From the NCBI RefSeq assembly GCF_021026315.1, contig NZ_JAJNCX010000014.1:1-64000 (forward strand): a stretch of DNA of 64,000 bases, in the 5' to 3' direction. Shown here in pieces: positions 20,190 through 44,242 of the stretch. The stretch's first letter is position 1. The number at the start of each line of letters is the position of its first letter. The notes below the pieces were generated by a model. That model was not told the origin of the DNA, did no database searches, and saw nothing but the letters and a program-made list of their open reading frames with translations. A program made the position numbers and the translations under genes. Origin of the DNA: Rhizobium sp. C4 (GTDB taxonomy: Bacteria > Pseudomonadota > Alphaproteobacteria > Rhizobiales > Rhizobiaceae).

Positions 20190-20205
20190 ATTATGCTACA
20201 TTAAT
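20190..20205 (+). repeat. attL arm: left copy of the 16-bp terminal inverted repeat
   Basis: ATTATGCTACATTAAT is the exact inverse complement of 54702-54717. In the excised circle the two arms face each other across a spacer of 8 bp, as expected for attP of a serine integrase. The core of this half-site (TTATGCTACATTAA, 20191-20204) recurs in degenerate form at 22777, 24598 and 27353. Confidence 0.92.
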
Positions 20206-20328
20206 TGCTGTAGTTTTGATAGAGCTAGTCTCACTTATTCAAAATTCATGCTGTATGAATTTCCAGTGGGCGTAGACCATCTGGATTGCCCTATCTCAAT
20301 CAGGCTGGTGGCCGCAGATAAAAAGAAA

Positions 20329-20351
20329 GTGGCCGGGAGTATCCCGGCCAC
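20329..20351 (-). terminator. Intrinsic terminator
   Basis: A perfect 10-bp stem GTGGCCGGGA/TCCCGGCCAC with loop GTA, followed on the minus strand by a T-rich run (TTTCTTTTTAT). It lies 24 bp past the stop of the glycine-rich protein gene and also keeps its transcript from running into the split comM. Confidence 0.88.
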
Positions 20352-20375
20352 AGTGCATTTATTGTGGTGCTGATG

Positions 20376-20867
20376 TTACCAGGAACCCCATCCGCCGCCC
20401 GAAGAACCACCATCGGATGAGTTGCCGTCGGAGGAACCCGAACCAAATCCACCCCACCCGCCACCGGACGAGCTGCTGTCGGATGAGCCAGAGCCAAGGC
20501 CCCATCCGCTGCCGGACGAGCCCGCAGAGGCATCGCTCCATCCGCTAAACGAGCCGTCGGAGCCGTAGTGGCTGATACCGCCGGACAGGTTACCGCGCGA
20601 CTCGCCGACATACGAGCCATCGGAACCATAATGGCTGGTGCCGCCGGACAGGTTGCCGCGCGACCCGCCGACATACGAGCCATCGGAACCATAGTGGCTG
20701 GTGCCGCCGGACAGGTTGCCACGCGACTCGCCGACATACGAGCCATCGGAGCCATAATGGCTGGTGCCGCCGGACAGGTTGCCGCGCGACCCGCCGACAT
20801 ATGAGCCATCGGAATTGTAACTGGAGGTGTCATTGCCACCGCCGAAAATGCTGGACCAAAATCCCAT
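20376..20867 (-). CDS. Glycine/serine-rich tandem-repeat protein
   Basis: A 163-aa low-complexity protein. After MGFWSSIFGGGNDTSSYNS come four near-identical 21-residue repeats of the pattern DGSYVGxSRGNLSGGTSHYGS, then a Gly/Ser/Trp-rich tail. No signal peptide or known domain. The repeats vary mainly G to E at one site. AAGGAGAGAGAG-like purines precede the ATG, and a strong terminator follows, so it is probably expressed. The function is unknown; it could be structural, binding or aggregating. Confidence 0.7.
   Translation of the reverse strand: MGFWSSIFGGGNDTSSYNSDGSYVGGSRGNLSGGTSHYGSDGSYVGESRGNLSGGTSHYGSDGSYVGGSRGNLSGGTSHYGSDGSYVGESRGNLSGGISHYGSDGSFSGWSDASAGSSGSGWGLGSGSSDSSSSGGGWGGFGSGSSDGNSSDGGSSGGGWGSW
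20567..20818 (-). repeat. Four tandem 63-bp repeats inside the glycine-rich gene
   Basis: About four units of 63 bp, each containing GCCGCCGGACAGGTTGCCGC and ending in the YGSDGSYVG codons, with only a few substitutions between units. Being a multiple of three, gain or loss of units keeps the frame open. Confidence 0.9.
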
Positions 20868-21088
20868 CTCTCTCTCCTTGTTTAACTTGCCGTCGGGCCA
20901 ATCCCGATGACAGTGATGGGTCGGTGCTCCCGACCACGAAGAGAAAATAAATCGCGTTACCTAGCGGTTTTGACCAACCGAGCGGCGCATTTGGAACCGG
21001 AATCTGCAATCGTCGAATCATTTTGGTGGGCGGGATTTGCTGCGGCAATGTTAAGTTAGCATATCAGTAACCCAAGAGGTGAGCCGTG

Positions 21089-22393
21089 ATGCCGACTGCC
21101 ACTTTTGAGACATATCTTGCAATTGTCGTCGAGCTTGGAGATGCGCTCGCTGAAAAGAAGCGGTTGCGTGGAAATGAACGCTGGAAAGCCGCTTTGAAAA
21201 TGGTTCAGAAAGATGGCGGTAGCTGGGGTGGTTATATGAACACGCCACCTGGCTCAGTAAAACCTCTCCGTTGCGTTAGCCGAAGAATGCACGACGAGAT
21301 TAAGGCGGAGGCTTTACCGTATTTCAATATGTATCCTACGCTGAAAGACATCGTAGATCGGCTTGACGCGGCTTACATTCCTTATGCGAAAGTCTTTCGC
21401 GCGTTGGACTCGAGAAAGACGCCGTTGGTTGTGGGTGCCACACGCGGCCCTGCATATGAGCGTGCCGCCCTAGAGCGTGTTCTTTCGAACGATGGGACTT
21501 CGCTTTCCGAAGTTCGTAACGATCTCGGATACTGGTTCGACCTTGTTGATAGAGCCGCGTATCAAGACGGCCGCTTAGGGCACCGCAGGCGCGTCATGAC
21601 ATTCGGCCGTAGCCTTATAGAAACCCTCACCAAAAACCCTGAAATAATTGTCAGCGGAGATGAAAAAAGGCAGTGGCTATTGACTCATATTCTATGTCGT
21701 ACGTCCTGGCGTGCATACCTTTGGGGTGACCGCGCGATGGAGGACTATTGCGTAGGCGTGTTGCACAATCTTCTGCGGGAGTTTCCGGACTTTGTCGTGC
21801 ATTCGCGTATCCTTGCACATGTGAGTTATCACGATAAGAAATCCACCGCTCCCTTTGTAGATCTGAAGGCATACGACGCTGGTGTGAAGACATGCGTCCC
21901 GAAATTTCATCACTCTATAGGAGCAAGCCTCAATAATGCTGCTGCGTCGGTCATCGATATTGGCGGTAATTCAATCTCGATTGACGACCGATTGCACGTA
22001 CTAGGTGATAGAACAATTCGCGAGGCGCTTGATTTGGGTAGGGCCGTTGATGAAAACGAGGGCGATCTTGAGGGTGCCGCGATGTGTACAAGGCGTTACG
22101 CTGTTACGCTAGCTGAACTGGATCGCGACTACGATGGCGGCAGACGAGCAATCAGCGATATTCGAACTACGCTCCGGGCTAACAATTTTTCGGCTCCTCT
22201 GGCAGAAGTACGCCTCATTCAGGCCGAAGCAGATATCTGCGAAGCCGAATGGAAACTGGAAGGGAAAGTCAGCAGTCTAGTTGAGTGCGGGGTTTTGTTG
22301 GAAAGAGCCGCAGGAATGGCGGAACATCGTGGGTTAGCACTCTCAGAGGAGGCAAGGGCTTATCGGGAGCGAGCCAGCCAGCTCGGAAGATGA
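21089..22393 (+). CDS. Unknown 434-aa protein (module a cargo)
   Basis: No recognised domain. The sequence is mostly soluble and helical. The N-terminal third (TFETYLAIVVELGDALAEKKRLRGNERWKAA) looks alpha-helical, and the C-terminal third (ALDLGRAVDENEGDLEGAAMCTRRYAVTLAELD) has a TPR-like helical pattern. The ATG at 21089 is preceded by AGAGGTGA; a GTG one codon earlier is in frame. Its stop overlaps the ATG of the next gene (ATGA), so the two are translated together. Both lie between two att half-sites (20191 and 22777), which suggests one accessory module, possibly defence (inference from position only). Confidence 0.65.
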   Translation: MPTATFETYLAIVVELGDALAEKKRLRGNERWKAALKMVQKDGGSWGGYMNTPPGSVKPLRCVSRRMHDEIKAEALPYFNMYPTLKDIVDRLDAAYIPYAKVFRALDSRKTPLVVGATRGPAYERAALERVLSNDGTSLSEVRNDLGYWFDLVDRAAYQDGRLGHRRRVMTFGRSLIETLTKNPEIIVSGDEKRQWLLTHILCRTSWRAYLWGDRAMEDYCVGVLHNLLREFPDFVVHSRILAHVSYHDKKSTAPFVDLKAYDAGVKTCVPKFHHSIGASLNNAAASVIDIGGNSISIDDRLHVLGDRTIREALDLGRAVDENEGDLEGAAMCTRRYAVTLAELDRDYDGGRRAISDIRTTLRANNFSAPLAEVRLIQAEADICEAEWKLEGKVSSLVECGVLLERAAGMAEHRGLALSEEARAYRERASQLGR

Positions 22394-22716
22394 CAGTAAT
22401 GAATGGTCAATTCTACAAAAATGCGTTCAAAGACGCATATCGATTTTCCCGAATGAGGTTGCGGGGCATTGTTAATACTGATTTGGAGGCGTGGAAAATA
22501 TATGTAAATCGATATATGAAAATCGACAATGTAATTGGTGGTAATATATATAGGTTTGCTGAAAGTTGTGCAAACAGTAGATGTATTGCAGACGTGTTTA
22601 GCATTGAAATTAGATATGCACGAATTAGACTTACGATGGATTTGAAGAATTCAACTCACCCTGTTGATGTATTTTTGCGCGATAAAATGAATACGAGAAG
22701 GCGAGGAAGATTCTAA
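22390..22716 (+). CDS. Unknown 108-aa basic protein coupled to the 434-aa gene
   Basis: The ATG overlaps the upstream stop. The protein (MTVMNGQFYKNAFKDAYRFSRMRLRG...) is basic, AT-rich in codons compared with the core genes, and lacks membrane segments. It ends TRRRGRF. No family is recognised. Coupling argues that it works with the 434-aa product. Confidence 0.5.
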   Translation: MTVMNGQFYKNAFKDAYRFSRMRLRGIVNTDLEAWKIYVNRYMKIDNVIGGNIYRFAESCANSRCIADVFSIEIRYARIRLTMDLKNSTHPVDVFLRDKMNTRRRGRF

Positions 22717-22776
22717 ATATGTTGAGGTCGGGGCTGCTCAATCCGTCGTCATTCAGGAGGCTTAATCCTGCTGATG

Positions 22777-22790
22777 TTTTGCTACATTAA
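22777..22790 (+). repeat. Internal att-like half-site 2
   Basis: TTTTGCTACATTAA differs from the left-end core TTATGCTACATTAA at one base. The similarity extends upstream: GCTTAATCCTGCTGATG here resembles GCATAATCTCTTGACA at attL, i.e. both the comM-like side and the element side seem present. It lies in a gene-free gap (22717-22879). Confidence 0.75.
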
Positions 22791-22879
22791 TGAGCATGGA
22801 TCGCGCTGCGGCTCATTACAATAGGTCGCGCCCGAACTGTTTGCTAAATCTATGAGGGTAGGCAGAGCGTCAGCCTAGA

Positions 22880-23470
22880 CTAGGGCCTGTTCGACCGCCT
22901 TAAAGTGGTAGGAAGCATGTCGTCGATTTCTTTGTCGGAGAACATAAGTTCCTCATTGTCCTTCAAAGATTCCTGCGCCTTCTTGTACGCCTTCCCGTCC
23001 GTGAATGGTGCCGCCCGATATATTTCGTGAAGATTGGCCTGCAGCGCGTCGCGCTTTGCACGGAGGTCGTCAATTTGGACCGCCGAGTTGAGCGCGTCGG
23101 TTATCAGGCTGAGGTAAGATTCTCGCACATTCCAGATGTCGGACGCGGTTTCCCTGTGTCGTTGCGCAAGCGCACCGGGGTCTAAGTCTTTCTGATACGC
23201 GTTGTAGATCAGGCTTAGAATGGCAAGCACGACGGTCGCGTATTCCGCATACTGCAGAAGCCCAGTCTCCGCCCTGAAAACGGCCGCTACCGCGCCGCTG
23301 GCGATGAGCGCGGACAGGATGATGTTGAACCACTTCGCATACCATTGATGATCGGCAAGTCGCTCGGCCATCTTCTCGTGGATCTTGTGGGTGTAGGCGC
23401 AACGGCCATAACACTCGCGTACTTGGCTCTCGAGTTGGTATCGTGGATCAGATTGGGAAGGTTGTGCCAA
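22880..23470 (-). CDS. SLATT-domain two-TM effector (CBASS)
   Basis: A 196-aa SLATT-family protein: a charged N-terminal helix (YGRCAYTHKIHEKMAERLADHQWYAKW), two adjacent membrane helices (FNIILSALIASGAVAAVF and YAEYATVVLAILSLIYNAY), then a helical cytoplasmic tail (RHRETASDIWNVRESYLSLI). SLATT proteins are pore-type effectors that depolarise the membrane when a nucleotide second messenger is made. It starts inside the 3' end of the nucleotidyltransferase gene (23-bp overlap), so the two form one operon and almost surely one system. Confidence 0.88.
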   Translation of the reverse strand: MAQPSQSDPRYQLESQVRECYGRCAYTHKIHEKMAERLADHQWYAKWFNIILSALIASGAVAAVFRAETGLLQYAEYATVVLAILSLIYNAYQKDLDPGALAQRHRETASDIWNVRESYLSLITDALNSAVQIDDLRAKRDALQANLHEIYRAAPFTDGKAYKKAQESLKDNEELMFSDKEIDDMLPTTLRRSNRP

Positions 23471-24329
23471 AGACGGTCCTCCATTTCACGCGGCGCTGTG
23501 CGGCCTTATCGTCGGCCTGCATATTGCAGGCCTCAACGGCGATATTGTAGTCCGTGAGCGCTTTCGTCCAGAATACCCCTGACTTGTAGACGTACGAGCC
23601 GCTCCCAGGCATGCGCCAATAGGTTTTCTCTCGGTCGAGGTCGTAGAGGTACTTCAAAAAATCACGAACCAGGTAGTCATGGAAGCCGTACGACTTATCC
23701 CGGTACTCCCACTTTTCGATGAACTGGTAGGCGAGTGCGTCGATCAAGGCCCCGCTCATCGGGACGCTATTGTGGTTCTTCCACACCCGCATCATCCGAC
23801 AAAGAGCTTTGAGGTTGCCGTTGACGGCTTTATTTCGGGTCTGAACGGCATCCATCTCTGCCCGAGGATTGCACGTCCGCCAAGCGCCTCCCCCGTTCGA
23901 ATCGGCAAAGGTCCAAGAACCATCTTTGTTGGTGAAGTACGGCAGAATTTCGTACGTGATCCCGTCCGTGAACGAGATCACGACAACCTGACCATCGCCG
24001 CCGACCTTGCTAGATTTGTAGGTATTGAGGAGGGAGTTTTTTACTGCTTGAAGTAGCGCTGACTGGCCGTTGGACTGATACCCGCTATATTTGACGTATT
24101 GCGCGTAAGGGAGCTGAAAGCCGATATCGAGGTCGCTTATTCCTCTCGCGGCCGTGTCCCGACCGTAGGAGCCGACATAGAGGCTGTGAGCGGAACTCGA
24201 ATCGGTGTTCCAAAAGTCAGCGTTGAGGCGCGTAGTAATGCGTCGGTAGCGTTGGCCGATCGAGCTGATTAGCTCAGAGCCGATATTGTAGTTGTTCCGG
24301 AAGTTGTAGAATTCGTCAGCAACACTCAT
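23448..24329 (-). CDS. CD-NTase (SMODS nucleotidyltransferase) of a CBASS system
   Basis: A 293-aa polymerase-beta-fold nucleotidyltransferase. The active-site loop GSYGRDTAARGISDLDIGF gives the GS motif and the DxD pair; the third acid is probably E in GITYEILPYF. Such enzymes make cyclic oligonucleotides on phage infection and signal to the downstream effector, here SLATT. MSVADEF at 24329 is chosen because GGGAGGGGGCGAG precedes it. A start 26 codons upstream would add a spurious signal-like stretch. No Cap2/Cap3 or HORMA genes are present, so this is a minimal two-gene (type I-like) layout. Confidence 0.88.
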   Translation of the reverse strand: MSVADEFYNFRNNYNIGSELISSIGQRYRRITTRLNADFWNTDSSSAHSLYVGSYGRDTAARGISDLDIGFQLPYAQYVKYSGYQSNGQSALLQAVKNSLLNTYKSSKVGGDGQVVVISFTDGITYEILPYFTNKDGSWTFADSNGGGAWRTCNPRAEMDAVQTRNKAVNGNLKALCRMMRVWKNHNSVPMSGALIDALAYQFIEKWEYRDKSYGFHDYLVRDFLKYLYDLDREKTYWRMPGSGSYVYKSGVFWTKALTDYNIAVEACNMQADDKAAQRRVKWRTVFGTTFPI

Positions 24330-24680
24330 CTCGCCCCCTCCCATCGCGCAAATGGTAAGAGATGAAAGTATTATGCCTGCAACGCAACCCATCAGGCGAA
24401 AGTCCAACAGAAATATTTACGTGTGGTTGTTACTTGACGTCAGCGGTCCGAGGTGAGGGCTGGCGTCCAGAGCCCTTGTGATCGTGAATTGGGCGTCCCT
24501 TACACCTATCTGCTGAGCAACCGATTTGCCTCAACGGGAACTCTCAATGGCATGGCACGTCCGCTTCTGGCGCAGCGGTCGCCAGACCATATTAACATTG
24601 TGATACATTAAATACGCGTAAGGCTAGAAGGGCGGGCCATCCCATAATCAACATCCATGCGGACTAGCGGAGGCGGTAAT
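24330..24680. other. Intergenic: CBASS promoter region and att-like half-site 3
   Basis: No gene is supported here. The left part should hold the promoter of the minus-strand CBASS pair; the right part holds the half-site at 24598-24611 and then the start of a decayed transposase fragment. Confidence 0.5.
24598..24611 (+). repeat. Internal att-like half-site 3
   Basis: TTGTGATACATTAA, two differences from the left-end core. With flanks, TTAACATTGTGATACATTAA against TTGACATTATGCTACATTAA matches at 17 of 20 positions (counted by eye). It separates the CBASS pair from the radical SAM module. Confidence 0.7.
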
Positions 24681-24689
24681 AGAGCCGTC

Positions 24690-24932
24690 TGTCGGAAGCG
24701 TTGGCGACAGTTACGACAACGCTCTCGTGAAACGATCAACGGCTTCTACAAGGCCGAGGTTAACCATCTCCGGGGACCGTGGCGCAACTTCGAAGCCGTG
24801 GAGTTCGCCACGCCGGAATGGGTCGGCTGGTATAACAACGCCGCCTTCTGGAGCCTATCGTCAGCATACCGCCAGCCGATGGCCGAAGAACGATACTACG
24901 CCATGCTGGACGCAGCAGCCATGGCCGCATAA
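24690..24932 (+). pseudogene. IS3-family transposase C-terminal fragment
   Basis: The translation ETINGFYKAEVNHLRGPWRN, then FEAVEFATPEWVGWYNN and EERYYAMLD, matches the C-terminus of IS3-family OrfB proteins (KAEVIHRRGPW..., EWVDWFNNRRL...). The middle is garbled where RRLLEPIGNIPP is expected, and everything upstream of the final 80 residues is missing. A dead fragment left by an earlier insertion. Confidence 0.8.
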
Positions 24933-24994
24933 CTTAAACGAAATGGCCTCCGACAAACCCGGCGCGGTTCAGACGCTATATCCGTAATCAAGAA

Positions 24995-25030
24995 AAGGTC
25001 GACAAGGCTTATGACTTTGCCGACCTCTTT
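24995..25030 (-). terminator. Probable terminator of the radical SAM/peptide operon
   Basis: AAGGTCGACAAGG and CTTTGCCGACCTCTTT form a stem with one mismatch. On the minus strand it ends in a T-rich run (CCTTTTCTT). It lies about 90 bp beyond the stop of the peptide gene. Confidence 0.6.
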
Positions 25031-25117
25031 AACGGGCCTACTAACACATAGCAAAACCGCTTCTAACGGCTCGGCGCAGCGTTTCAAATCCCCACCTTTG
25101 GTGGAGGACGTGACTTT

Positions 25118-25306
25118 TCAAAAGCGGTAGGTCCAAGTCCATTCTACACTGCCCGCTGTCCGCGGGGCAGACATCCCCTCTGTGCCTCTTCGAAGGAGAT
25201 GCTCGGTGAAATTCACCTGCTCCGGAGTCATGCCTGACCTGTCGCCGTCGAGCTTTGCCTGAAGCGACTTCACATCATCTTCTGTGAGATTAATCTCGCG
25301 TGCCAT
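25118..25306 (-). CDS. Putative RiPP precursor peptide ending WTWTYRF
   Basis: A 62-aa peptide: an acidic helical leader (MAREINLTEDDVKSLQAKLD, then GMTPEQVNFTEHLLRRG), a Gly/Ser/Pro linker (TEGMSAPRTAGS) and the terminal VEWTWTYRF. The Shine-Dalgarno AGGGAGAC overlaps the stop codon of the radical SAM gene 11 bp upstream, so the two are translationally linked. The final seven residues place W, W and F where darobactin (WNWSKSF) has them and end YRF as dynobactin does. Those are radical-SAM-crosslinked BamA inhibitors. The likeness is by pattern only; the crosslinks and target here are inference. An alternative is an accessory protein of the maturase. Confidence 0.7.
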   Translation of the reverse strand: MAREINLTEDDVKSLQAKLDGDRSGMTPEQVNFTEHLLRRGTEGMSAPRTAGSVEWTWTYRF

Positions 25307-25317
25307 AAAAAGTCTCC

Positions 25318-26643
25318 CTATAAGATTGTGTTGCGAACATCACCGATAAGCGACCGCAAACCACAACACTCGACTTGCCCCTCCTTCCCATGCAACTGGC
25401 GAAGACGCACATCGTGCGGGCATCCGCCGCTACAGATTGCATACTCGGGGCACCCAGAAGTATGCAACTTGGCGTCGTCCACCACCTTGATGGCAGATGC
25501 CAATTTTGTTGAATCCCTCATCATTTCACCCAGTCCGATTGACTCTATGTTGCCAAACGTGAAGTCAGGATCGCCTACATACTTGTCGCAGGCGGAAACA
25601 TCTCCGTTAGGCTCGATAGTCAAGTATCGACCCATGCAGTTTTCTCTATAGATGCAAAGTCCTGTATATCCCGCTTTCACCGCGTCAACCAATGCTTGCA
25701 ATTCGCGAATGGTTATTGCGCTACGATAGTCCCTCCACCAAACATCGAATAAATCACGCAGAAAATCAGAAAATACTTTCCATGGCAGCCATGATTCGTC
25801 ACTATCCCTGATGCTGTTGCTCGGCAACGCATTGAGGAGGGCGACGGCGGGGACCTTTAAATCGACCAGATATTCGAGATAAGCTCTGGGTCCCAACTTT
25901 ATTACGCATTCATCAACCACGGCGAGCGCTCCCACCCGCAGGCCAGAGGCCTGCAACATGGATATTCCTCTCTGCACTGCAGCGGATGTGCCTTGGCCTT
26001 TCTTGTCTACCCTTCGCAAATCGTGAACTTCGGGCGGTCCATCGATACTCACTCCAATATTGACTCTGTATTTCTTGAAGAGTTCAATCCATTCTGGAGT
26101 GATCCGCGTTGCATTAGTTTGAAGTGAATTAGCTATCTTCATATTTGGGGCGGCGTACTGCTGCTGTATCCATAAAGCGCGCTCCACATACTCGATTGGC
26201 AGGAGGGTTACTTCTCCCCCATGCCAAACAAAGTCAACTTCGTCGATGTGAGGAGAAGTTAATACCTGATGACTGATATTGGCAAGCGTTTGCAGGGGCA
26301 TAACATTTCCCGCGCCCGACCGCCAAGAATGACAGTATGTGCATCGGAGATTACATAATCTTGTGGCTTTCAATATTATTACAACGTGCCTGCTGGGGGT
26401 AGAGAAAGTGCTTTTTGGACCATTCTGTATTCGGCGAACGATATCGTATTCCTCTTCAGAGAAGAGGTCTAAACCAGATCGAAATCTTAGATTCCATATG
26501 TCTATGCCATCTTCTTCTATAAGCGGCATAAAGGCTTCGGCCGATTTTCGTGGTAGAAGGGCAAGTAAAGACTCTAGTGCATCCCCTCCTTCGGGAGGGC
26601 CAGATCGAGGGGGTTCAAATACTTCTTCGGCGACAATCTTCAT
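25318..26643 (-). CDS. Radical SAM/SPASM peptide maturase
   Basis: A 441-aa enzyme. Residues about 85-110 carry the [4Fe-4S] motif CNLRCTYC, followed by WHGGEVTLL (the GGEP-type SAM motif) and IGVSIDGPPEVHD. The C-terminal SPASM region has spaced cysteines: CMGRYLTIEPNGDVSACDKYVGD, CPEYAICSGGCPHD and ECCGLRSLI, for auxiliary clusters. The layout is that of maturases that crosslink or epimerise ribosomal peptides. AGGGAGGCG precedes the ATG. The N-terminal 85 residues (LESLLALLPRKSAEAFMPLI...) may bind the leader. No transporter or protease gene is nearby. Confidence 0.9.
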   Translation of the reverse strand: MKIVAEEVFEPPRSGPPEGGDALESLLALLPRKSAEAFMPLIEEDGIDIWNLRFRSGLDLFSEEEYDIVRRIQNGPKSTFSTPSRHVVIILKATRLCNLRCTYCHSWRSGAGNVMPLQTLANISHQVLTSPHIDEVDFVWHGGEVTLLPIEYVERALWIQQQYAAPNMKIANSLQTNATRITPEWIELFKKYRVNIGVSIDGPPEVHDLRRVDKKGQGTSAAVQRGISMLQASGLRVGALAVVDECVIKLGPRAYLEYLVDLKVPAVALLNALPSNSIRDSDESWLPWKVFSDFLRDLFDVWWRDYRSAITIRELQALVDAVKAGYTGLCIYRENCMGRYLTIEPNGDVSACDKYVGDPDFTFGNIESIGLGEMMRDSTKLASAIKVVDDAKLHTSGCPEYAICSGGCPHDVRLRQLHGKEGQVECCGLRSLIGDVRNTIL

Positions 26644-26967
26644 TGTAAGCGCCTCCCTATCGACAGCAATGCTACCTCATAAATTGTAAAAATCAAGCAA
26701 GAATTGAGTAATCATGGCATCATTAGTATTTGAAGTTGCATTTTTAATCGCAAAAATATATCTTTGGATTCGACGCAGCTTGTAGATGGATATACGGGAA
26801 GAGTATTCGGGGATTCCCACAAATATACGCGAAGTATTTCTGTGAGATTATTAATTGCCTGTTTAGGGCCGACACTGGGAGGGGCATCTATAATTTGTCT
26901 CTTGAGTGTGGCCATCTTCTAGATTTGCAGTGCCTTAACAGCTAGAACCGATCAACAAGGTGAGCGC

Positions 26968-27366
26968 ATGAGCACTTTTGAGCAACCAGAGATCGTTAGT
27001 CGTGAAGATGTCGTAAAGATGGGAGGTCTGCTCCCTCTTACGGACGCAGAGATCAACAGTATTGCTGAATTGGTAGGGGTTTCGCCTAGCGAGATTACTA
27101 GGCTACCCGTGTATCGGGTCATTTCAAGCGGTGATTGGACCCCGTCCTTGAAGGATTTCTTGGCAGAGTCGATGAGTAGAATGCCCTTTGCTCACACCAA
27201 AGCTGCGATGCAGGGGTATCTTACCCTAGAAAAAGTGGAAGAGTATGCGACAGGAAAATTCACAATGCGTAATCCCGTTACTGGCGAAAGCGAAGAATTT
27301 ACACTCCTCTACCCGTACCCGAACCTTAGCTGGCGCACACAATTTGCTAAAATTCTGATACATTAA
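26968..27366 (+). CDS. Unknown 132-aa protein ending inside an att half-site
   Basis: The ATG is preceded by AAGGTGAGCGC, a good ribosome site. The protein is soluble (MSTFEQPEIVSREDVVKMGG...) without a recognised domain. The stop TAA (27364-27366) is the last triplet of half-site 4, and the final residues KILIH are encoded by it. The gene may therefore be cut short at its 3' end by a past integration. It is divergent from the radical SAM gene across an AT-rich gap of about 320 bp in which I see no other convincing gene. Confidence 0.6.
   Translation: MSTFEQPEIVSREDVVKMGGLLPLTDAEINSIAELVGVSPSEITRLPVYRVISSGDWTPSLKDFLAESMSRMPFAHTKAAMQGYLTLEKVEEYATGKFTMRNPVTGESEEFTLLYPYPNLSWRTQFAKILIH
27353..27366 (+). 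repeat. Internal att-like half-site 4
   Basis: TTCTGATACATTAA followed by TTGC, as at the left end (TTATGCTACATTAA-TTGC). Two differences in 14 bases, then four shared bases. It lies between the radical SAM module and the large mob/recombinase module. AATTTGCT just upstream matches the comM side of attR. Confidence 0.72.
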
Positions 27367-27485
27367 TTGCATCCGCTGGATGCCTTTTAGACTCTTCTTG
27401 AAATGGCGGAAATCCGCCTTCACCTTCATAACGTCGCGCACCGCAAGAGATGAACCATCTGCCTGGCGGGGCGGCGGATAATCAT

Positions 27486-28313
27486 TTAGGCGTTTTCGAC
27501 GAACTCAAGTAACTTCATTCGCACGTGAACGATGGCAGGGCCGCTGGCTTGAAGTCCGCGCATGAATGCCGCGCTCCAACTATTCGTGCCTGCGGTGATT
27601 TCTGCAATTTTTCGGTCCTTACCAATCCGAGCGATCACGGCATCCAGAGCATAGTCGTCGAGATTCACCGCGAGCGTTTCGTGGTAGGTTGCCCACAGAT
27701 TCACGGTTGAGATCATGAATTGCTTCCCGAGGACGTTCCTAAGGTGGAACTGAACGAGGCTCCTCCTCGGCTCACCTAAGTCCGGGGTAGGAACCGGACG
27801 AAATGTCGCGGCACTATAGGGGGCGTCGATTTCCACCTGCCAGACAGGCCCGTTTGCCCAGGCGTCGAAATACGGATGAATGAACCGCTCATGCTCTGCT
27901 TCTCCCCTGTAAGTCTTCCCCTTTGTGCTTGAATTGCAGTGCATGCACGCGGGCACCAAGTTTGCGCGCATGATCGAAAATTCACTGTAGGTTGTCCGCG
28001 GGAGATAGTGGTCTAAGCTGCCGATGACTGGGGAACCGCACATTGGACAGTACTTTAACTGCTTGTTATCGCGTATAGCCTTTAATTCAGGGGAATTCTT
28101 TCTCCCGTCATAAAGGTCGTATCGTCTGTGGTGAAGATCACTATCAACATAGAGGGGATCGAAGGCCCACGGATTCCCACCGACGGCTCGATATGCCGCG
28201 TATGCTGCAAGCCACTCCTGCCTACCCGGTGCGAAAATTGGATCCCGGCATAGGGCTTCAATCTCGCTGTCGTCACCATCAGCGGATGTTGGTACGGGTA
28301 AGCTGCGCATCAA
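27486..28313 (-). CDS. HNH endonuclease, PtuB-like partner of the AAA ATPase
   Basis: A 275-aa nuclease with an HNH/zinc fold at residues about 90-130: YCPMCGSPVIGSLDHYLPR, then FSIMRANLVPACMHCNSSTKG gives the CxxC pairs, DH and N residues. Its ATG overlaps the stop of the upstream ATPase gene (ATGA), the order of Septu (PtuA ATPase then PtuB HNH). In Septu the ATPase senses infection and licenses nucleic-acid cleavage. Sequence divergence from classical PtuB cannot be judged here. Confidence 0.85.
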   Translation of the reverse strand: MMRSLPVPTSADGDDSEIEALCRDPIFAPGRQEWLAAYAAYRAVGGNPWAFDPLYVDSDLHHRRYDLYDGRKNSPELKAIRDNKQLKYCPMCGSPVIGSLDHYLPRTTYSEFSIMRANLVPACMHCNSSTKGKTYRGEAEHERFIHPYFDAWANGPVWQVEIDAPYSAATFRPVPTPDLGEPRRSLVQFHLRNVLGKQFMISTVNLWATYHETLAVNLDDYALDAVIARIGKDRKIAEITAGTNSWSAAFMRGLQASGPAIVHVRMKLLEFVENA

Positions 28314-30013
28314 TTTCCTGCGTCGTTCTGTTTCAGACGTGCGGCTATTATGGAAAGACTCTCGGCATTGAGTCGGTCACCAAACCGCTCGATCACGGCG
28401 TCGATGCCCATCCCCTGGCCGACTTCATCAGCCCAAGCTTCAAGCCTGTCTTGATAGCGATGCGCCAGGTTCGTGTCGCCGAAGACAAACTGTGAAATGG
28501 TGTCGATGCTCGCGCCGAAGGTTTGCATGCGCGGCCGGACAATCTGAATATCGCGGCCGTCCATTGTTAGGACATGCACCTGATCTCGCGGGACTTCCCG
28601 GACGATATAAGCCGAATGGGTCGCTATAATCGCGACTGACCCGGTCACCTCAAGAAGGTGTTGAAGTAGCGCCATTATGTCTGAGACAAAATTCGGGTGC
28701 AGGTGGTTTTCAGGTTCATCAAGTATCAACAAAGACCCTTGTTCGATCGATGCAACGAGCTGCGCCGTAAGTCGGACCAATGAAATCTCCCCGCTGCTTA
28801 ACGCGCGAGCCTGGAGATCCTCGTCCATTATGATCGGCATCCGGTTCCAATCAATCCGCCGCAGCAAGAGCAACGTATTCTGCTCTCCAAGTCGCCGGGC
28901 CAAGGGAAAGTAGTGATGTCCCCCAATTTCCACCTCATGCGGGAGACCTTCGTCCGCCTCAGGGGCGGCCAGTGGAAGATAGATCTGATTCCAAATCCCG
29001 ATGGCTGTAAGGCCATTACGCAAGATGTCGATACGGTCGTGGTTGTTTTCTACTTGCGCGAGGCGTCGATCATCGTCGTCGCGAACGCAGGTTACCAATG
29101 ACTCTAGAAGGGTGTCAGGTCGATCCCGTTCCGCATAGTTCACGGCGAAGTGCTCGTAGTCGATCCCGAGCCAAGCTCCGATCTGTTTTGGAAACGGATC
29201 GTTTGGAACGGACGAAAAGACTAAGACACGTGATACTTCCAATGGCGGATCAAACGCAGGAGCGTTATCAGTCAGCTTATTCGGATCGGCTGTCGTCAGC
29301 GCGTCGATCATTGCCTTGAGCAACTGTGTCTTGCCCGTGCCATTTTTGCCGATCAAGACGTTGGTACGGGTCTTGAAGATCGGGTCTTCGTCGAAGTCGA
29401 TGTCCAGTTCGTACCGATTTTGCGCGCTTCTCAACTGGGCGGTGAAACGCGACCTTCCGCGCGCCGCGTCTTGGACATCGGGCGGCATCACCTGTCGGAA
29501 ATAGCGACTCCCCTGCTTCAGCGCCGAGAACGCCCCACCTGCTCGAATTATGCCGAGGTAGAAATCACGGCTTCCTATCAATTCTAGCCGTGGCTGATCT
29601 TGGTTCTCAATCCTGACGACCACCGCGTCACCAAGCCGGCGGAGACTGGCGATGGCCGCCTCGAACCCAAGTTTCGATACAATCTGCATATATTGATCGC
29701 GTTTAGGAAGGAGCGTAGCGAAGTCCGGCTGGACCTCAGCGATCGGCCGAATGTCCGCGCCACCTAGAATTTCAGCCATAGCGTCAGAGGTGCGATTGAA
29801 TCCGCGCACCATCAAACGGAAACGGAATACCGTCGGGTCACCATCTAAACTGGCGAACATCATCCTTGCCAGATAGGTGTGGCCGAAGTCGTCGAATTGC
29901 TCGGGATCGGGCAATACAGCCACATACGGTCTCGGCAATTCAGCCGCCAGCACAGCCTCTCGGCTTTTCGCGAAAACAATCGTCACTTGGGCGTCGGCTG
30001 GAATTCTAGGCAT
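28310..30013 (-). CDS. AAA/SMC-like ATPase, PtuA-like (Septu-type defence)
   Basis: A 567-aa ABC/SMC-type ATPase. About 210 N-terminal residues of unknown fold precede Walker A (VLIGKNGTGKTQLLKAM), then ABC signature LSSGEISL, Walker B SLLILDEPENHLHP and the H-loop ATHSAYIVRE. This is the layout of OLD/PtuA-like defence ATPases that toggle a partner nuclease. It is coupled to the HNH gene by a 4-bp overlap. The long N-terminal extension distinguishes it from typical PtuA and may make it a variant subtype. Confidence 0.85.
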   Translation of the reverse strand: MPRIPADAQVTIVFAKSREAVLAAELPRPYVAVLPDPEQFDDFGHTYLARMMFASLDGDPTVFRFRLMVRGFNRTSDAMAEILGGADIRPIAEVQPDFATLLPKRDQYMQIVSKLGFEAAIASLRRLGDAVVVRIENQDQPRLELIGSRDFYLGIIRAGGAFSALKQGSRYFRQVMPPDVQDAARGRSRFTAQLRSAQNRYELDIDFDEDPIFKTRTNVLIGKNGTGKTQLLKAMIDALTTADPNKLTDNAPAFDPPLEVSRVLVFSSVPNDPFPKQIGAWLGIDYEHFAVNYAERDRPDTLLESLVTCVRDDDDRRLAQVENNHDRIDILRNGLTAIGIWNQIYLPLAAPEADEGLPHEVEIGGHHYFPLARRLGEQNTLLLLRRIDWNRMPIIMDEDLQARALSSGEISLVRLTAQLVASIEQGSLLILDEPENHLHPNFVSDIMALLQHLLEVTGSVAIIATHSAYIVREVPRDQVHVLTMDGRDIQIVRPRMQTFGASIDTISQFVFGDTNLAHRYQDRLEAWADEVGQGMGIDAVIERFGDRLNAESLSIIAARLKQNDAGN

Positions 30014-30156
30014 TGCTAATCTTTGAGGTTAAGGAGCCAATAAGATGCCGCCAGGTCCGGCCGCATGGCGCTCAAGAAGGCCAACGAATTCATCCAAACC
30101 TCATGCCTCGTGGATGTTGTTAAGACCGTTGATGCGCGTTGAATTCGTGGCCAGCT

Positions 30157-30906
30157 CTAAAGGCGAGCGTGAACATTTCTCAGTGAGTGCCATTCTTGTT
30201 CTACCCGTTCTACTGCATCGCGTGCTGTTGGCATCCATCCATTCAAACTATAAAATGAGTTTTCTCGCAGCCACGTCGGCTGAATGATCTCCCACTTCCA
30301 CTTCCCTCCTTTCCTTCGTGAATTCTTATCGAAGCATATGCGCGCAAAATTTTCTTCACCATCCCAAGCTGTAAAATCTTCTTTTTTCTCCCCCGGACTT
30401 GTCTCTACCCACCGATGGTGCGGTTGGTACTTTTGTTTATTGATTTCAAGCAGTGCCACGTGCGCTCTGATCACTTTGTCAGTTGGATGGAGAATAGCGG
30501 TAGGTTCATCGCTTAAAGCAAACGCAGGCAAGGATGAATCGGGATTTTCACGGACAATACCGAACGCGACGCGGTAGTCATTCGCTTGCCAGTGGTCCGG
30601 GAAGCCTGGGGACTCATGCCCATTCTCAAAAATGGCGCGGTAAATGCCCCCTTCTTCGTCGATCCACGAGTGATCTTCGGGGCTCTGGAGCGGCTCAATG
30701 CCATCAAGCGCTGCCTTAGCGTAGACCTTTTGGCCGAGTTCGGTGATCAATAGCTTGCTCGACACACTGTCTTGTGTCGCCCAGCCGTTGTCGATTAATG
30801 ACTGCCAAGTTTTCCGACCGACTCCAAAGAAGGCTCCAAGCGGAACTTTCTTTCCCGTGGAGAGACGCGTAAGTGCGGTTACTTGTCGGCGGTCGATTTT
30901 GCGCAT
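30157..30906 (-). CDS. Unknown 249-aa protein with winged-helix-like N-terminus
   Basis: Residues 1-60 (MRKIDRRQVTALTRLSTGKK...LIDNGWATQDSVSSKLLITELGQKVYAKA) look like a small winged helix ('LxxLGxxx' turn). The rest is a mixed domain with many Trp and acidic residues and no known motif. MRKIDRR at 30906 is chosen since the region upstream overlaps the divergent gene at 30940. Only 33 bp separate the two divergent starts. It may belong with the HNH-like gene or with the Septu pair; this is not decidable. Confidence 0.55.
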   Translation of the reverse strand: MRKIDRRQVTALTRLSTGKKVPLGAFFGVGRKTWQSLIDNGWATQDSVSSKLLITELGQKVYAKAALDGIEPLQSPEDHSWIDEEGGIYRAIFENGHESPGFPDHWQANDYRVAFGIVRENPDSSLPAFALSDEPTAILHPTDKVIRAHVALLEINKQKYQPHHRWVETSPGEKKEDFTAWDGEENFARICFDKNSRRKGGKWKWEIIQPTWLRENSFYSLNGWMPTARDAVERVEQEWHSLRNVHARL

Positions 30907-30939
30907 TCGGGAAATCCTAGTCAGATATAGCTCTGTTTT

Positions 30940-31302
30940 ATGGACACAAGTGTTAGAAATGAATGTACGAAATGCGGAGGTTCGCGCTTTAACGCGTGGA
31001 ACGCCTGCATGGATTGCCGAAATATTCGCGGTCACGTTCGGAACGCGAGACTGAAAGCAAACGGCGGCAAGCATACCACTTCCGAATGGAGGGCGGTCCT
31101 TGCTGCCAGTCCAGTATGTGCTGAATGCGAGCGTCCATGGGATGCCATTCCCAAGCGGCTGGATCCACGATACAAATATTCGTGGACCAAGGGGCATAAG
31201 ACAGCGGTCTATCATGGCGGCACTGACGACATCTCGAACATTCAAGCCGAATGCTATGAGTGCAATTTCGAAAAAAATGCGGGCGCGCTTAAGCGTCCGT
31301 GA
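30940..31302 (+). CDS. Small zinc/HNH-like protein
   Basis: A 120-aa cysteine-rich protein: CTKCGG...CMDCRN near the N-terminus, then CAECERPW...GHKTAVYHGGTDDISNIQAECYECNFEKNAG, which fits the second half of an HNH motif (H...N...CxxCN..K). It could be a small nicking nuclease or a nucleic-acid-binding zinc protein. It starts 33 bp from the divergent gene at 30906. Confidence 0.65.
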   Translation: MDTSVRNECTKCGGSRFNAWNACMDCRNIRGHVRNARLKANGGKHTTSEWRAVLAASPVCAECERPWDAIPKRLDPRYKYSWTKGHKTAVYHGGTDDISNIQAECYECNFEKNAGALKRP

Positions 31303-31403
31303 GCAGCGTTCTAGAGTGTACGAAGACTTCGCCCTTCGGTCCTGCTTGGTATTGTTGAACGTTTAGATGGCGTTGGTCTGCATTGATTGAGGAGGTGGTG
31401 AAG

Positions 31404-31580
31404 GTGGGTTGGCGCACATATCAAGCTTACGAAGATGTGAACAAGCGAGCCTTTCGGACCTGGAGGGCCTCATTATCGTGGCCAGAATACCTCGCCTGGA
31501 AATGGTCTCGCTGGCGGGGCTTTTCGTTAGGTGTTCTCACAGTTGCGATTCCAGCGCTCCTGTTCATTTTCCTGCGTTAG
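31404..31580 (+). CDS. Small single-TM protein at the head of the mob operon
   Basis: 58 residues with an aromatic, basic N-terminal half (GWRTYQAYEDVNKRAFRTW, WPEYLAWKWSRWRG) and one C-terminal membrane helix (FSLGVLTVAIPALLFIFLR). The GTG at 31404 is 8 bp after GGAGG; an upstream TTG start would bury this ribosome site. It precedes the relaxase and may be a small mobilisation or exclusion protein. The family is not recognised. Confidence 0.5.
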   Translation: MGWRTYQAYEDVNKRAFRTWRASLSWPEYLAWKWSRWRGFSLGVLTVAIPALLFIFLR

Positions 31581-31628
31581 ACAAGGTTTCAGGTCTGCCC
31601 TTGGAGAGCCACACCATGAGCCTTGGCG

Positions 31629-31657
31629 AATGATGATAGTCGGTCACTATCATCATT
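31629..31657 (+). promoter_or_regulatory. Perfect 12-bp hairpin upstream of the relaxase; candidate oriT or terminator
   Basis: AATGATGATAGT and ACTATCATCATT pair perfectly around CGGTC, followed by CTTTTTGCTTTTTT. It lies 65 bp before the relaxase ATG, where MobV-type elements usually carry oriT as an inverted repeat. The T-run also makes it a good terminator for the small upstream gene. Both roles are possible. Confidence 0.6.
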
Positions 31658-31721
31658 CTTTTTGCTTTTTTCTCTTTCCGCCGGCAGGCACCATGTAGGC
31701 ATTCTCCCGAGTGCCAAATAC

Positions 31722-32873
31722 ATGGCATACCAGTTCATCCACCTCGAATGCTACAGCCGGAAAGCCGACCGCCAAGGTCGGTCATCGGACTTCATTTTAG
31801 ACGAAGCGGCGCGGCAACCGATCGCCTCTGTCCACGTAGCTGACCCGCATCCGCCGACGATCATATACGGCCTCGACATCGAAGAAGTCAGGGCGATGCA
31901 CGACACCGCAGCGGCGGCCGCGATGACCGCGGGCGCGCGGGGAAGGCTCCGGAAAATTCAGTCCCGGCAGAAGACGCTCCATACCGTCGTCGCGAGCCAT
32001 CCATACACGGTCGCGGAAGTCCGCACCAACGGGGACAAGCTCGTCGAGGTAAGGGACTGGGAACAACGGACCGTCAAATGGCTGCGGGATCAATATGGCT
32101 CCGCGCTCAAGTCTGTCATCCGCCACACCGACGAAAAGCAGCGGCATATCCATGCCTATATCGTCCCGACATCCGATCCGGAAATGAGGGCGGCCGCCTA
32201 CCACCCCGGCATCGTCGCAAAGCGAGCCGTCATGATCGCAGGACCAAGACCGGGTGAGGATGGCAAAGCTCTGAACAAAAGGTCGAACGCGGCGTACAAA
32301 GCGGCGATGCGTGAATGGCAAGACTCTTATCACGATGCCGTTGCCGTTCCGTGCGGGCTGACGCGTCTGGGTCCTGCGCGACGTCGCCTCACTCGGGAGG
32401 AGTGGAAAGCCGAACAAGCCCAGGCGAGAGCATTACAGAATGCCCTCGGTCGGGCCGCCCATATTCAGGCCAGAGGCCAAGCTTATGTCGACCGCACCAA
32501 GGCTGAGGCGGCCGCGATCCGCGCCGATGCCGAGAAGGGCCGGGTCGCGGCGGAGCGCCTGAAGGGCATTGGTGGTGCAATCCGTTCCGTTGCCGACGGC
32601 ATCCAACAGTCGCGGGTTCGCGAGCAGATCCGGCGTGAATTTGGGCGGGACCTTGCCGCAGCTCAAGCCCTTGCCGAACGGGCAAGATCCGATGCTGCGC
32701 GAGAGCGTGAGGCACGAGCGGAAGCCGAAAAGCGAACGTCCGACGCACGTCGGGCGGCACGGCATCATGCGGCAGCGGCAGCAATGGCAAGGCAGGAGGT
32801 TCGGCGTCTGTCGGACGCACTCGCGGCCGCGCTCGACGAACCCCCACCGATACCGGGAGGACCGAGACTATGA
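31722..32873 (+). CDS. MobV (Pre/Mob) family relaxase
   Basis: A 383-aa conjugative relaxase. The diagnostic third motif HTDEKQRHIHAYIVP (HxDExxxHxH) is the metal-binding triad; WLRDQYG precedes it as in plasmid Mob proteins. The C-terminal half is a long Ala/Arg/Glu-rich coiled coil. It should nick oriT and pilot the strand through a type IV secretion system supplied in trans. MAYQFIHLECYSRK at 31722 is the family-like start. The stop overlaps the next ATG (ATGA). Confidence 0.9.
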   Translation: MAYQFIHLECYSRKADRQGRSSDFILDEAARQPIASVHVADPHPPTIIYGLDIEEVRAMHDTAAAAAMTAGARGRLRKIQSRQKTLHTVVASHPYTVAEVRTNGDKLVEVRDWEQRTVKWLRDQYGSALKSVIRHTDEKQRHIHAYIVPTSDPEMRAAAYHPGIVAKRAVMIAGPRPGEDGKALNKRSNAAYKAAMREWQDSYHDAVAVPCGLTRLGPARRRLTREEWKAEQAQARALQNALGRAAHIQARGQAYVDRTKAEAAAIRADAEKGRVAAERLKGIGGAIRSVADGIQQSRVREQIRREFGRDLAAAQALAERARSDAAREREARAEAEKRTSDARRAARHHAAAAAMARQEVRRLSDALAAALDEPPPIPGGPRL

Positions 32874-33568
32874 AGTCGACAGGCGACGAACTTTTCGAAA
32901 AGAACGCCCACACGATGCTCCGCGATATCGGCATGGAGTACCTACCTATCGCGAGCGGTGCAGATCTCGATGCGGTAAGATGGAGCCTGACGCACCGCGC
33001 CTTGCCGCAAGGCCGGCGCGAGGCATGGCTTGAACAGGAAGCGCCCGAACTGCTTGCCTATCTCGAATGCATCGACAGGCACGGCGCGGCGGGATGGCGC
33101 ACCGCAAACGAGCGGGTGGAATTGGTCGCGAGCGTATTCCGACAGAATTGCGGCCTTCCGGAATGCCGGCGACCCTGGCTGCGCTACCTCTGGAACACGC
33201 TCCCAGAGATGGCGTCCATTGGACGGATGATCCTTGACCGTCAGTCCGACGAACTCTGCGAGTTCAGTCTGGCTGACAAGGCGTTCGCAGCCGAAGACGT
33301 CGCTCGATATGGCGAAAATGATGGTGGAGAAGGCAGCTCGGGAAAGGTGGGATCGGCTGGAACGGTAGCAGTTCCGAAGCCGACGCCTCGGCGGAACCTT
33401 CGCCTTCGGCAAGTCCCTGTCCTGCTGACGGTATTGGAGAGGGAAATTCTCGGGCTGAAAGATGAGAGTAAATCCGCCAAACCAAAAATTGATGGCCCGT
33501 CAGGGACCGACGGTCCCGGCGGCACTGATGGCCCTAAGGTTACTGGCAAGAAAGGCGGGCCGAAATGA
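32870..33568 (+). CDS. Unknown 232-aa protein in the mob operon
   Basis: Coupled at both ends by ATGA overlaps to the relaxase and to the DotA/TraY-like gene. The first 130 residues are helical (MKSTGDELFEKNAHTMLRDIG..., REAWLEQEAPELLAYLECIDRHG). The tail is a Gly/Pro/Lys low-complexity segment (GPSGTDGPGGTDGPKVTGKK). No known domain. Its position suggests a relaxosome accessory or coupling factor. Confidence 0.65.
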   Translation: MKSTGDELFEKNAHTMLRDIGMEYLPIASGADLDAVRWSLTHRALPQGRREAWLEQEAPELLAYLECIDRHGAAGWRTANERVELVASVFRQNCGLPECRRPWLRYLWNTLPEMASIGRMILDRQSDELCEFSLADKAFAAEDVARYGENDGGEGSSGKVGSAGTVAVPKPTPRRNLRLRQVPVLLTVLEREILGLKDESKSAKPKIDGPSGTDGPGGTDGPKVTGKKGGPK

Positions 33569-35511: not shown

Positions 35512-35693
35512 AAAAAGTTCTGATCGGCGTAGCTGTCGGGATATCGACGAGCGTTGGATGTGCGCTCCTCAGGCTACCGGACTTGTCTGCCAGCCTGACA
35601 ACCTTGACAGTCTTCGGCGGTATCTGGGCCACGCTTGCGGTCACTGCGGAATGGTTCTTCGGGCGGTGGCGGACATCATGTAGAAATACGTGA
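35508..35693 (+). CDS. Small two-TM protein, last gene of the mob operon
   Basis: 61 residues starting MKKVLIGVAVGISTSVGCAL with a second hydrophobic stretch (LTTLTVFGGIWATLAVTAEWFF). The ATG overlaps the stop of the DotA/TraY-like gene. Possibly an inner-membrane accessory of the same complex. The family is not recognised. Confidence 0.6.
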   Translation: MKKVLIGVAVGISTSVGCALLRLPDLSASLTTLTVFGGIWATLAVTAEWFFGRWRTSCRNT

Positions 35694-36300
35694 TGTCACA
35701 ACGTGTACATCAATCTGGTCAAAACCCCTGAAACGAAAAAATTACACTTCCGCCAAAATAGATGTTGACCGCGCGCTCTATCCGGACAACCATTAAATTG
35801 TCGAAGGGACGAAAGAAACTTCGACAAACTTAACCGCCGCACAGGCGGCTCTGAAGTTTAAGACATATGGAGACATATTAGTCTGTTCTACATCCCCACG
35901 AGGGTTTAGGAAGCAATCAAGGCTACAGTCTGGATTTTTCCGTTCTCGTTCCCCATTGAGGGTTGTTCACCGCCGCGGAGGCGGATTTTGGAGAGCGGCT
36001 TTTGGGCCGCTTTTCTTTTTTGTCGTAGCTTAGGTACAATCGAGTTCGCGCTCCCGTCTGCGTAAGTGGCTGAGCCTCGGGGACATTTTTGTTCATCCAC
36101 CAGGGTCGTTGTCCGCTGGAAACAGACCAGATGTAACTTGCTAATTCAGGTGAAAGTCCTCATATCTGCCGCCCTGAAAGCGGATAAGCCTCTACAGCCG
36201 TGGATCGCTTGTGCGCCAATTGCGCCGAAAGACGACTCGACTAAGGACACATCCTCTTCAGCCGCTGCTATGGTCGAACCGCTGAACACCCAGCTCCGCA
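35694..36300. other. Intergenic region with hairpins, no supported gene
   Basis: About 600 bp between the plus-strand mob operon and the convergent Hsp90-like gene. It has two CCGCC/GGCGG palindromes and the terminator at 35994-36022. Open frames here are short and lack ribosome sites. Confidence 0.55.
35994..36022 (+). terminator. Intrinsic terminator of the mob operon
   Basis: Stem AGCGGC/GCCGCT with loop TTTTGG, followed by TTTCTTTTTTG. It lies 300 bp after the last gene and points with the mob operon. Confidence 0.75.
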
Positions 36301-40079: not shown

Positions 40080-40222
40080 GAAACCAGCACGTCCACGACA
40101 GGGATGCTATAATTACACAACAACTAGCAAGAGAAATTGGATTCGCCCAGCCCTTATCAGAGGCATCCACCGTTGCAAAGGCCGAATAGAAAAGCGGCAG
40201 TCAAGCCGCCAATCTTCTTGGC

Positions 40223-40486
40223 TCAAAATGCTGCATTGCGTCCGCGATGCCGTTCCCACTCTTTGACTATGGGCCAATACTCGGCGGAAAGCCTATGGGT
40301 CATGGTGACATTAACTCTGTCAAGGTAGTTCCAGGCGTCTCGCTCTGACAACGTTGTGATGCCCTCCAACGTGCCGAGGATAAGGCCGACGGAACATCTG
40401 ACAGAGGTGGCCCCGGTCAAATCCTCCGGTGCGGCTTCGCCGGTCAGGACGGCTTCAACTCTCTCTCGAACTTGTTTTTCGAACAT
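40223..40486 (-). CDS. Hypothetical 87-aa protein
   Basis: Soluble and acidic (MFEKQVRERVEAVLTGEAAPEDL...). AAGGA precedes the ATG. It is the last of a run of short minus-strand genes (about 42.1 to 40.2 kb) with similar ribosome sites, probably one transcript. No known domain. Confidence 0.5.
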   Translation of the reverse strand: MFEKQVRERVEAVLTGEAAPEDLTGATSVRCSVGLILGTLEGITTLSERDAWNYLDRVNVTMTHRLSAEYWPIVKEWERHRGRNAAF

Positions 40487-40496
40487 GGCTTTTCCT

Positions 40497-40784: not shown

Positions 40785-40861
40785 TTCATTTCCTTTCCTA
40801 TGGCCGTCAAACTCGGCCTTTGTTTAAATGGTTCTGTCATTCTCGATCGACTTCAAGACGG

Positions 40862-41125: not shown

Positions 41126-41193
41126 CCTCGCCTCCCGGAAGTTCGTTGGAATGGAGGAGTTGGGGAAGCGGCCAAGCCGCCCCATTAATGCAC

Positions 41194-41517: not shown

Positions 41518-41565
41518 GCGCCGTTCCTTTGTTTAGTTGTTGTCGTTTATGAGCGACCGTTGGCT

Positions 41566-42051: not shown

Positions 42052-42202
42052 CTGGTAGTTTCCTTTCTGTTTTTGGGTGGCCGACCAAAGAGTTGGCAGG
42101 CTGTTCAACAAGTTCGCCACCTATCGCGGCAGCATTTTCCGGGCAAAGCTCCGCCCTTCACGTCCAGCGTGCTCCATTGACCTCTTTCTTTGATGCTTTG
42201 TG

Positions 42203-44176: not shown

Positions 44177-44242
44177 TTTTCAATACCTCGAAGAGTTTCG
44201 AAATTGGGCCTTTATGGAAAGGTCCGGACAACCATATTCAGT

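Follow-up and report, generated by a model that had tools for sequence, protein, structure and literature searches.

Gene content of the locus

The window (the whole stretch of DNA analyzed here, 64,000 nucleotides) carries on its reverse strand a gene for a radical SAM/SPASM peptide maturase, followed directly by a gene for a small peptide. This cassette resides in an integrative element. The features are as follows.

25318..26643, reverse strand: radical SAM/SPASM peptide maturase (NCBIfam DarW/DarE scores, trees, and alignment with Vibrio crassostreae DarE)
25314..25318, reverse strand: Shine-Dalgarno sequence GGGAG of the peptide gene, starting within the maturase stop codon (sequence)
25118..25306, reverse strand: precursor peptide ORF, 62 aa, leader plus C-terminal core without a tail (ORF call and sequence)
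25121..25141, reverse strand: core WTWTYRF, with the stop codon at 25118-25120
20190..54717, no strand assigned: integrative element carrying the cassette, 34.5 kb, inserted in comM (yifB)
52924..54675, reverse strand: large serine recombinase, likely the element integrase (Pfam Resolvase, Recombinase, and Zn_ribbon_recom), at the right end

The maturase ORF encodes 441 aa and starts with an ATG preceded by GGGAGG. Its cysteines lie in the motif CNLRCTYC (C97, C101, and C104) and in the C-terminal part (C330, C336, C352, C398, C404, C408, C426, and C427), as the initial annotation had described. All of them are invariant in a 5-row alignment that includes V. crassostreae DarE, with which the maturase shares 34% identity. 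Two Pfam domains scored above their cut-offs (Radical_SAM, PF04055, 60.9 bits; SPASM, PF13186, 28.0 bits), which assigns the enzyme to the radical SAM/SPASM proteins.

At this locus the enzyme comes first and the peptide second; none of the dar and cluster IV loci we have seen shows this order, and in cluster IV the peptide gene lies ahead of the enzyme. The precursor (MAREINLTEDDVKSLQAKLDGDRSGMTPEQVNFTEHLLRRGTEGMSAPRTAGSVEWTWTYRF) ends in SVE-WTWTYRF, and its gene begins 11 bp after the maturase stop codon. Coordinates and sequence agree with the earlier description of this ORF and of its Shine-Dalgarno sequence on the enzyme stop codon. The leader had been called acidic, which is correct only in a mild sense (10 D/E against 7 K/R, counted by eye). 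Given the 11-bp gap, enzyme and precursor would be co-transcribed; scans for promoters and terminators yielded nothing beyond shuffled sequence. A 132-aa ORF divergent from the maturase (26968-27366, forward strand) had no NCBIfam, Pfam, or PADLOC match.

An integrative element in comM

The ends of the element are marked by 16-bp inverted repeats (20190-20205 and 54702-54717). Its insertion splits comM into a front part (19546-20189) and a rear part (54718-55614), and these flanks match side by side in all five sister genomes compared. The G+C content is 0.54 over 20210-47000 versus 0.61 on either side; that of the maturase gene is 0.49. Flanking sequence matches records of Rhizobium, Sinorhizobium, and Shinella, in keeping with a Rhizobiaceae-like host. 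Besides the cassette, the element carries two C5 cytosine methylases and, as odd cargo, a flagellin gene (47561-48742, reverse strand) adjoined by a LuxR-type regulator (46868-47560).

The cassette is flanked by genes of two systems: (i) a CBASS pair consisting of a SMODS cyclase and a SLATT_4 two-TM effector (22880-24407); and (ii) the paired genes PDC-M01B and PDC-M01A (27486-30013), a candidate defence system that also matches PtuA (Septu), though less strongly. Pfam scanning of the 26 larger element ORFs revealed neither an exporter nor an acetyltransferase, no obvious immunity gene, and no MacB, FtsX, or HlyD match that could represent DarBCD. The sole ABC_tran match (28 bits) falls inside the AAA_21 ATPase PDC-M01A and marks no transporter. 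The previously noted lack of an exporter and of a tail behind the core agrees with the ORFs scanned. Neither is unusual, because the cluster IV BGC is described without DarBCD (Guo et al. 2022, PMC9055067), cluster IV peptides end in WTFRF, and V. crassostreae DarA is tail-less as well.

The location between CBASS and PDC-M01 genes, with no exporter among the ORFs scanned, would suit a defence or signaling peptide used within the island instead of an exported antibiotic. We regard this as very improbable, since the core resembles BamA ligands and, to our knowledge, no defence system uses such a peptide.

Just downstream of the peptide gene lies an IS3-family transposase fragment (24660-24976; at most 89% identity to rhizobial plasmid copies). 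Recent cargo left beside such a fragment might be decayed or silent and yield no product, and the finding that, of the genomes searched, one alone carries the cassette would fit such a remnant. This is nonetheless improbable, as the enzyme is complete, none of its cysteines is missing, and each of the two genes is preceded by a good Shine-Dalgarno site.

The core peptide and its leader

The core WTWTYRF is identical to that of darobactin B (WNWTKRF) at five of seven positions, namely W1, W3, T4, R6, and F7, with the changes N2T and K5Y. Owing to T2 and Y5, it does not match the core of darobactins proper, WNWx(K/R)xF. Its last five residues, WTYRF, match the cluster IV pattern WT(F/Y)RF. Precursor cores seen in our sample were WNWSKSF, WNWSKGF, WNWSKAF, WNWTKRF, WNWSFRF, and WTFRF; Y5 occurred in none of them, the closest being F5 in WNWSFRF. 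The precursor with this core (L044:2087-2320, from a genome in the family of G1052) looks like a further darobactin variant. Since its enzyme passes the DarE cut-off (719.6 bits), an aromatic residue at position 5 followed by R6-F7 does occur beside a DarE. The L044 and window peptides share W-x-W-S/T-F/Y-R-F and are both tail-less, but in L044 three exporter genes of the darBCD type separate the peptide gene from the enzyme gene. Among native variants, S2 is reported for darobactin E (WSWSKSF) and R5 for darobactin D (WNWSRSF) (PMC8694152), and position 2 is reported as variable with activity retained (PMC10726357).

The window contains the pattern W-x-W-x-x-x-F-stop (TAA/TGA) a single time, versus 0.02 expected from shuffles. 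In the 5.2-Mb genome the pattern occurs twice, as does the reversed pattern used as a control; the second genomic site is found where another contig begins and closes an unrelated frame. As the genome count equals that of the control, the motif alone proves nothing, and the weight rests on its position beside a DarE-like enzyme. Six darobactin-type cores were also compared with the tails of stop-to-stop ORFs of at least 25 residues. Among 1394 window tails, one agreed at five of seven positions (the peptide itself) and two at four. Control loci, from which the window, three window copies, and 25 loci with or likely with DarA were left out, gave 3625 tails (not all independent, because the loci partly overlap); none agreed at five positions and 13 at four, and copies of the cluster IV peptide make up six of the 13. 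A single match to the exact WTWTYRF-stop DNA in viral contigs lay in a frame full of stops and was considered noise.

No NCBIfam model matched the precursor even at E 10, including NF038004, on which V. crassostreae DarA reaches 67.9 bits. With a 13-row profile of known precursors, the window peptide took 6th place among 1106 window ORFs, at 3.1 bits and E 6.1; with a WNW-only profile it was not among the best 12. The latter is a weak test: the cluster IV peptide is likewise not among the best 12 in its own locus (L057), so leaders differ widely across the family. Judged by this weak test, kinship of the leader to DarA leaders was not detected.

Family assignment of the maturase

Among NCBIfam models, the maturase scored best with DarW (386 bits) and DarE (346 bits), followed by a sulfatase maturase (212 bits), DynA (178 bits), AmcB (139 bits), and GrrM (139 bits). 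It lies under every NCBIfam equivalog cut-off, including those of DarW (NF041300, 650 bits), DarE (650 bits), and DynA (NF041298, 450 bits). For reference, V. crassostreae DarE reached 760 bits on the DarE model and 521 on the DarW model, and the enzymes of loci L044, L057, L043, and L041 reached 705-746 and 420-521 bits, respectively. As the maturase falls below both cut-offs, we place it outside both named families. No sequence above the DarW cut-off was met in the 385 class, 398 phylum, 295 E. coli-like-family, and 12 G1597-genus genomes searched. At E 1e-5, no DarE was found among PDB sequences, the best match being the anaerobic sulfatase maturase 4k37. An AlphaFold model from the 5-row alignment had a mean pLDDT of 50.2 and was kept out of the reading.

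Phylogenetic position

Daropeptide loci were sampled from 9 of 295 genomes of the E. coli-like family (rpoB 91%) and from 7 of 12 genomes of the G1597 genus. This genus seems to be Photorhabdus: the P. khanii row of PMC8694152 has the same DarA as G1597. The tree includes 14 synthases, i.e. nine from the E. coli-like family, that of V. crassostreae, and four from the G1597 genus (out of nine matches there, one was a duplicate of the set and four were left out). A precursor with W-x-W or WTFRF lies near the enzyme in all 14 loci: ten have WNW(S/T)K, L044 has WNWSFRF, and three have WTFRF. As further rows, we used three sulfatase maturases and the enzymes of the nearest other loci, namely L005 (order genome), L007 (class genome), and L008 (Cupriavidus megaplasmid); the trees are without GrrM, XyeB, YhhB, and DarW rows.

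In this tree, the window enzyme is sister to the 14 synthases with support 99/97, at the end of a branch of length 1.63. The placement was retained (97/95) when DynA was added and L007 removed. A first tree of 16 rows had grouped the enzyme with V. crassostreae DarE (99/95). The enzymes of L005 and L007 fall outside the synthase clade according to trees and AU tests, and L008, L005, and L007 as sister in place of the window enzyme were rejected (AU p 0.030, 0.003, and 0.002, respectively). A clade of the window enzyme with L008 was rejected as well (AU p 0.032). These values are to be read with long branches in mind, some p being barely below 0.05 and the tested groups partly named after tree inspection.

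Residue patterns were also compared. Sixty residues are shared by all 14 synthases but by none of the three sulfatase maturases; the window enzyme has 31 of them, L008 and L005 have 21 each, and L007 has 17. When 36 signature residues were defined without cluster IV, the cluster IV enzymes had 27 and the window enzyme 9. With residues of L005, L007, and L008 also excluded, the window enzyme had 8 of 26. By these sequence comparisons, the window enzyme is related to the daropeptide synthases yet far more divergent than cluster IV. Given its scores below the DarE and DarW cut-offs, we regard it as a separate deep lineage and not as a darobactin synthase proper.

The initial annotation had proposed a darobactin/dynobactin-like system. 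The darobactin half is supported: no other NCBIfam model comes near the DarW and DarE scores, even if these stay under the cut-offs, and in the trees the sampled synthases are the sister group of the enzyme. The dynobactin half is not: the NCBIfam score is distant (178 bits against a cut-off of 450), and a clade with DynA was rejected (AU p 0.023). Locus L061, which holds DynA, contains a small ORF ending in SYRF; the YRF that it has in common with the window core is no more than a resemblance. Dynobactin contains a His-Trp link, whereas the window core has no His. The cassette is thus best described, from its enzyme and core, as daropeptide-like but neither darobactin proper nor dynobactin.

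A triceptide-like cyclophane would also be conceivable, with C-C links between Trp and C-beta alone and no oxygen, so that the enzyme would be kin to daropeptide synthases by descent but not by chemistry. The deep branch, a score below the DarE cut-off, and the weaker matches to GrrM, AmcB, YhhB, and XyeB, which NCBIfam describes as cyclophane-forming, point in this direction. We consider it unlikely, since these four families reach at most 139 bits versus 346-386 for DarE and DarW, and the W-x-W unit, in which DarE places its oxygen bridge, is still present in the core.

Distribution

Close homologues of the enzyme were not found in genome searches from genus to phylum at the thresholds used; the genome draws for these ranks overlap. 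The enzyme occurred in one of six genomes of its genus (E ≤ 1e-20) and in one of 394 family genomes (E ≤ 1e-40), in both cases its own genome alone. In 397 order genomes (E ≤ 1e-40) the sole other match was L005. With the DarW model, the sole other match in 385 class genomes (E ≤ 1e-60) was L007, whose enzyme reaches 240 bits, and there was none in 398 phylum genomes (E ≤ 1e-55). A single-protein search of genome contigs gave two distant matches.

Relatives of the maturase in viral contigs are 22-28% identical, and the single-protein query gave none there; those in phage records are below 31% identical among the ten matches listed. The precursor had no match in viral contigs or plasmids. Among the openly licensed papers listed, we found no alphaproteobacterial daropeptide, nor any mention of WTWTYRF or DarW.

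Predicted product

Daropeptides have been characterized by (i) a DarE-type enzyme; (ii) a W-x-(W/F/Y) core at or near the C-terminus of a precursor encoded beside the enzyme; and (iii) an aromatic-aliphatic ether crosslink (Guo et al. 2022, PMC9055067). At the window locus, a core of this kind, WTWTYRF, is present at the C-terminus of a peptide encoded beside the enzyme gene. The genes, the kinship of the enzyme, and the similarity of the core are the observed part of our best explanation: the locus is probably a minimal daropeptide-type RiPP cassette, whose chemistry, processing, and BamA target we infer.

Compared with the DarA-DarE system of darobactin B (Photorhabdus; NF038004 and NF038005), the host is alphaproteobacterial and no DarBCD was seen. 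The product is most likely a peptide that contains a Trp ether and, as its second link, a wholly aromatic Trp-Tyr bridge. A W1-W3 ether and a W3-Y5 bridge are suggested because the core consists of two stacked W-x-aromatic units and the spacing W3-x-Y5 equals that of the cluster IV ether. In the proposed sequence of events, the leader would dock on the enzyme. SAM-derived radicals would then oxidize W3 at C-beta, where a water oxygen would be added and bridged to the indole of W1, giving a Trp-O-Trp ether. The W3-Y5 link would follow, either as a C-C bond, corresponding to W3-K5 in darobactin, or as a second ether, as from Trp to the Phe two residues on in cluster IV. Housekeeping proteases may release WTWTYRF, and the rigid strand, its terminal F with a free carboxylate, might act on the BamA lateral gate of rival Gram-negative bacteria. 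For WTWTYRF, the calculated [M+H]+ is 1059.505 without modification, 1057.489 with one C-C link, 1073.484 with one ether, 1071.468 with an ether and a C-C link, and 1087.463 with two ethers.

The spacing of the core aromatics, at positions -1, -3, -5, and -7, is reminiscent of the C-terminal signal by which BamA recognizes outer-membrane proteins. Darobactin B is reported to bind BamA mainly via its backbone (PMC8694152). Guo et al. (2022, PMC9055067) report that the two links need no enzyme other than DarE, that the ether is formed first and takes its oxygen from water, and that E. coli lysate frees the darobactin core; the radical mechanism of DarE is their proposal. The W-x-F ether of cluster IV, from Trp to Phe two residues on, was assigned by MS/MS in the same study.

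The resemblance to cluster IV of Photorhabdus raises another reading, namely a monocycle with the core WTYRF and a single W3-Y5 Trp-O-Tyr ether, W1 belonging to the leader side. In both systems W-T-Y/F-R-F closes the peptide with nothing behind it, the ending in three cluster IV loci being SQWTFRF, and neither system shows DarBCD, as described for cluster IV in PMC9055067. However, a clade of the window enzyme with cluster IV and L044 was rejected (AU p 0.0004), and with it a YRF/FRF ending inherited in common with cluster IV, and the GNAT acetyltransferase gene adjoining the cluster IV enzyme is absent from the 26 element ORFs scanned. A monocycle would also leave T2-W3 and the presence of W1 at its darobactin position unexplained. 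We give it a small chance, and keep the doubly linked peptide as the preferred product.

Going further, the doubly linked peptide may possibly represent a novel BamA-directed scaffold, i.e. a fused all-aromatic bicycle (Trp-O-Trp plus Trp-Tyr) made by a synthase basal to all those sampled and serving as a weapon in an alphaproteobacterial mobile defence island; we advance this tentatively.

Relevance for the daropeptide family

Darobactin, a peptide antibiotic, is lethal to Gram-negative bacteria, and daropeptides are recent leads against these organisms. The hosts named in PMC9055067 and PMC8694152 (Photorhabdus, Yersinia, Vibrio, and Pseudoalteromonas) are all Gammaproteobacteria; those of cluster II are given as diverse genera in PMC9055067. 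Judged by its place in the trees, the window lineage branches before all sampled synthases and comes from another class, with Tyr where darobactins carry Lys or Arg. Such a deep lineage could shed light on the evolution of the ether and C-C reactions, and the cassette would test whether the second link takes an aromatic partner. Y5 would moreover offer an uncharged position 5. The peptide sequence is new and may yield a differently bridged molecule. The defence genes in the comM element suggest that such cassettes travel alongside immunity genes.

Other candidate loci

Near the enzymes of L005, L007, and L008, the nearest others, we found no convincing precursor. The W-x-aromatic tails there belong to short stop-to-stop stretches and were taken as chance; examples are WNWHRR (L008, 837-926), at a distance of about 4 kb from the enzyme, and NQWTFT (L005, 1617-1781), inside the enzyme gene. 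In L005, the ORF at 933-1415 (160 aa), which includes the Trp-rich segment WSRSWINVSVWTREWHN, directly precedes the DarE-related SPASM enzyme, and the two possibly form an unknown RiPP locus. The same is possible for L008, where, within 4266-7394, the DarW-related SPASM enzyme (318 bits) is preceded by two leader-like small ORFs and followed by a 419-aa ORF that by eye resembles a glycosyltransferase.
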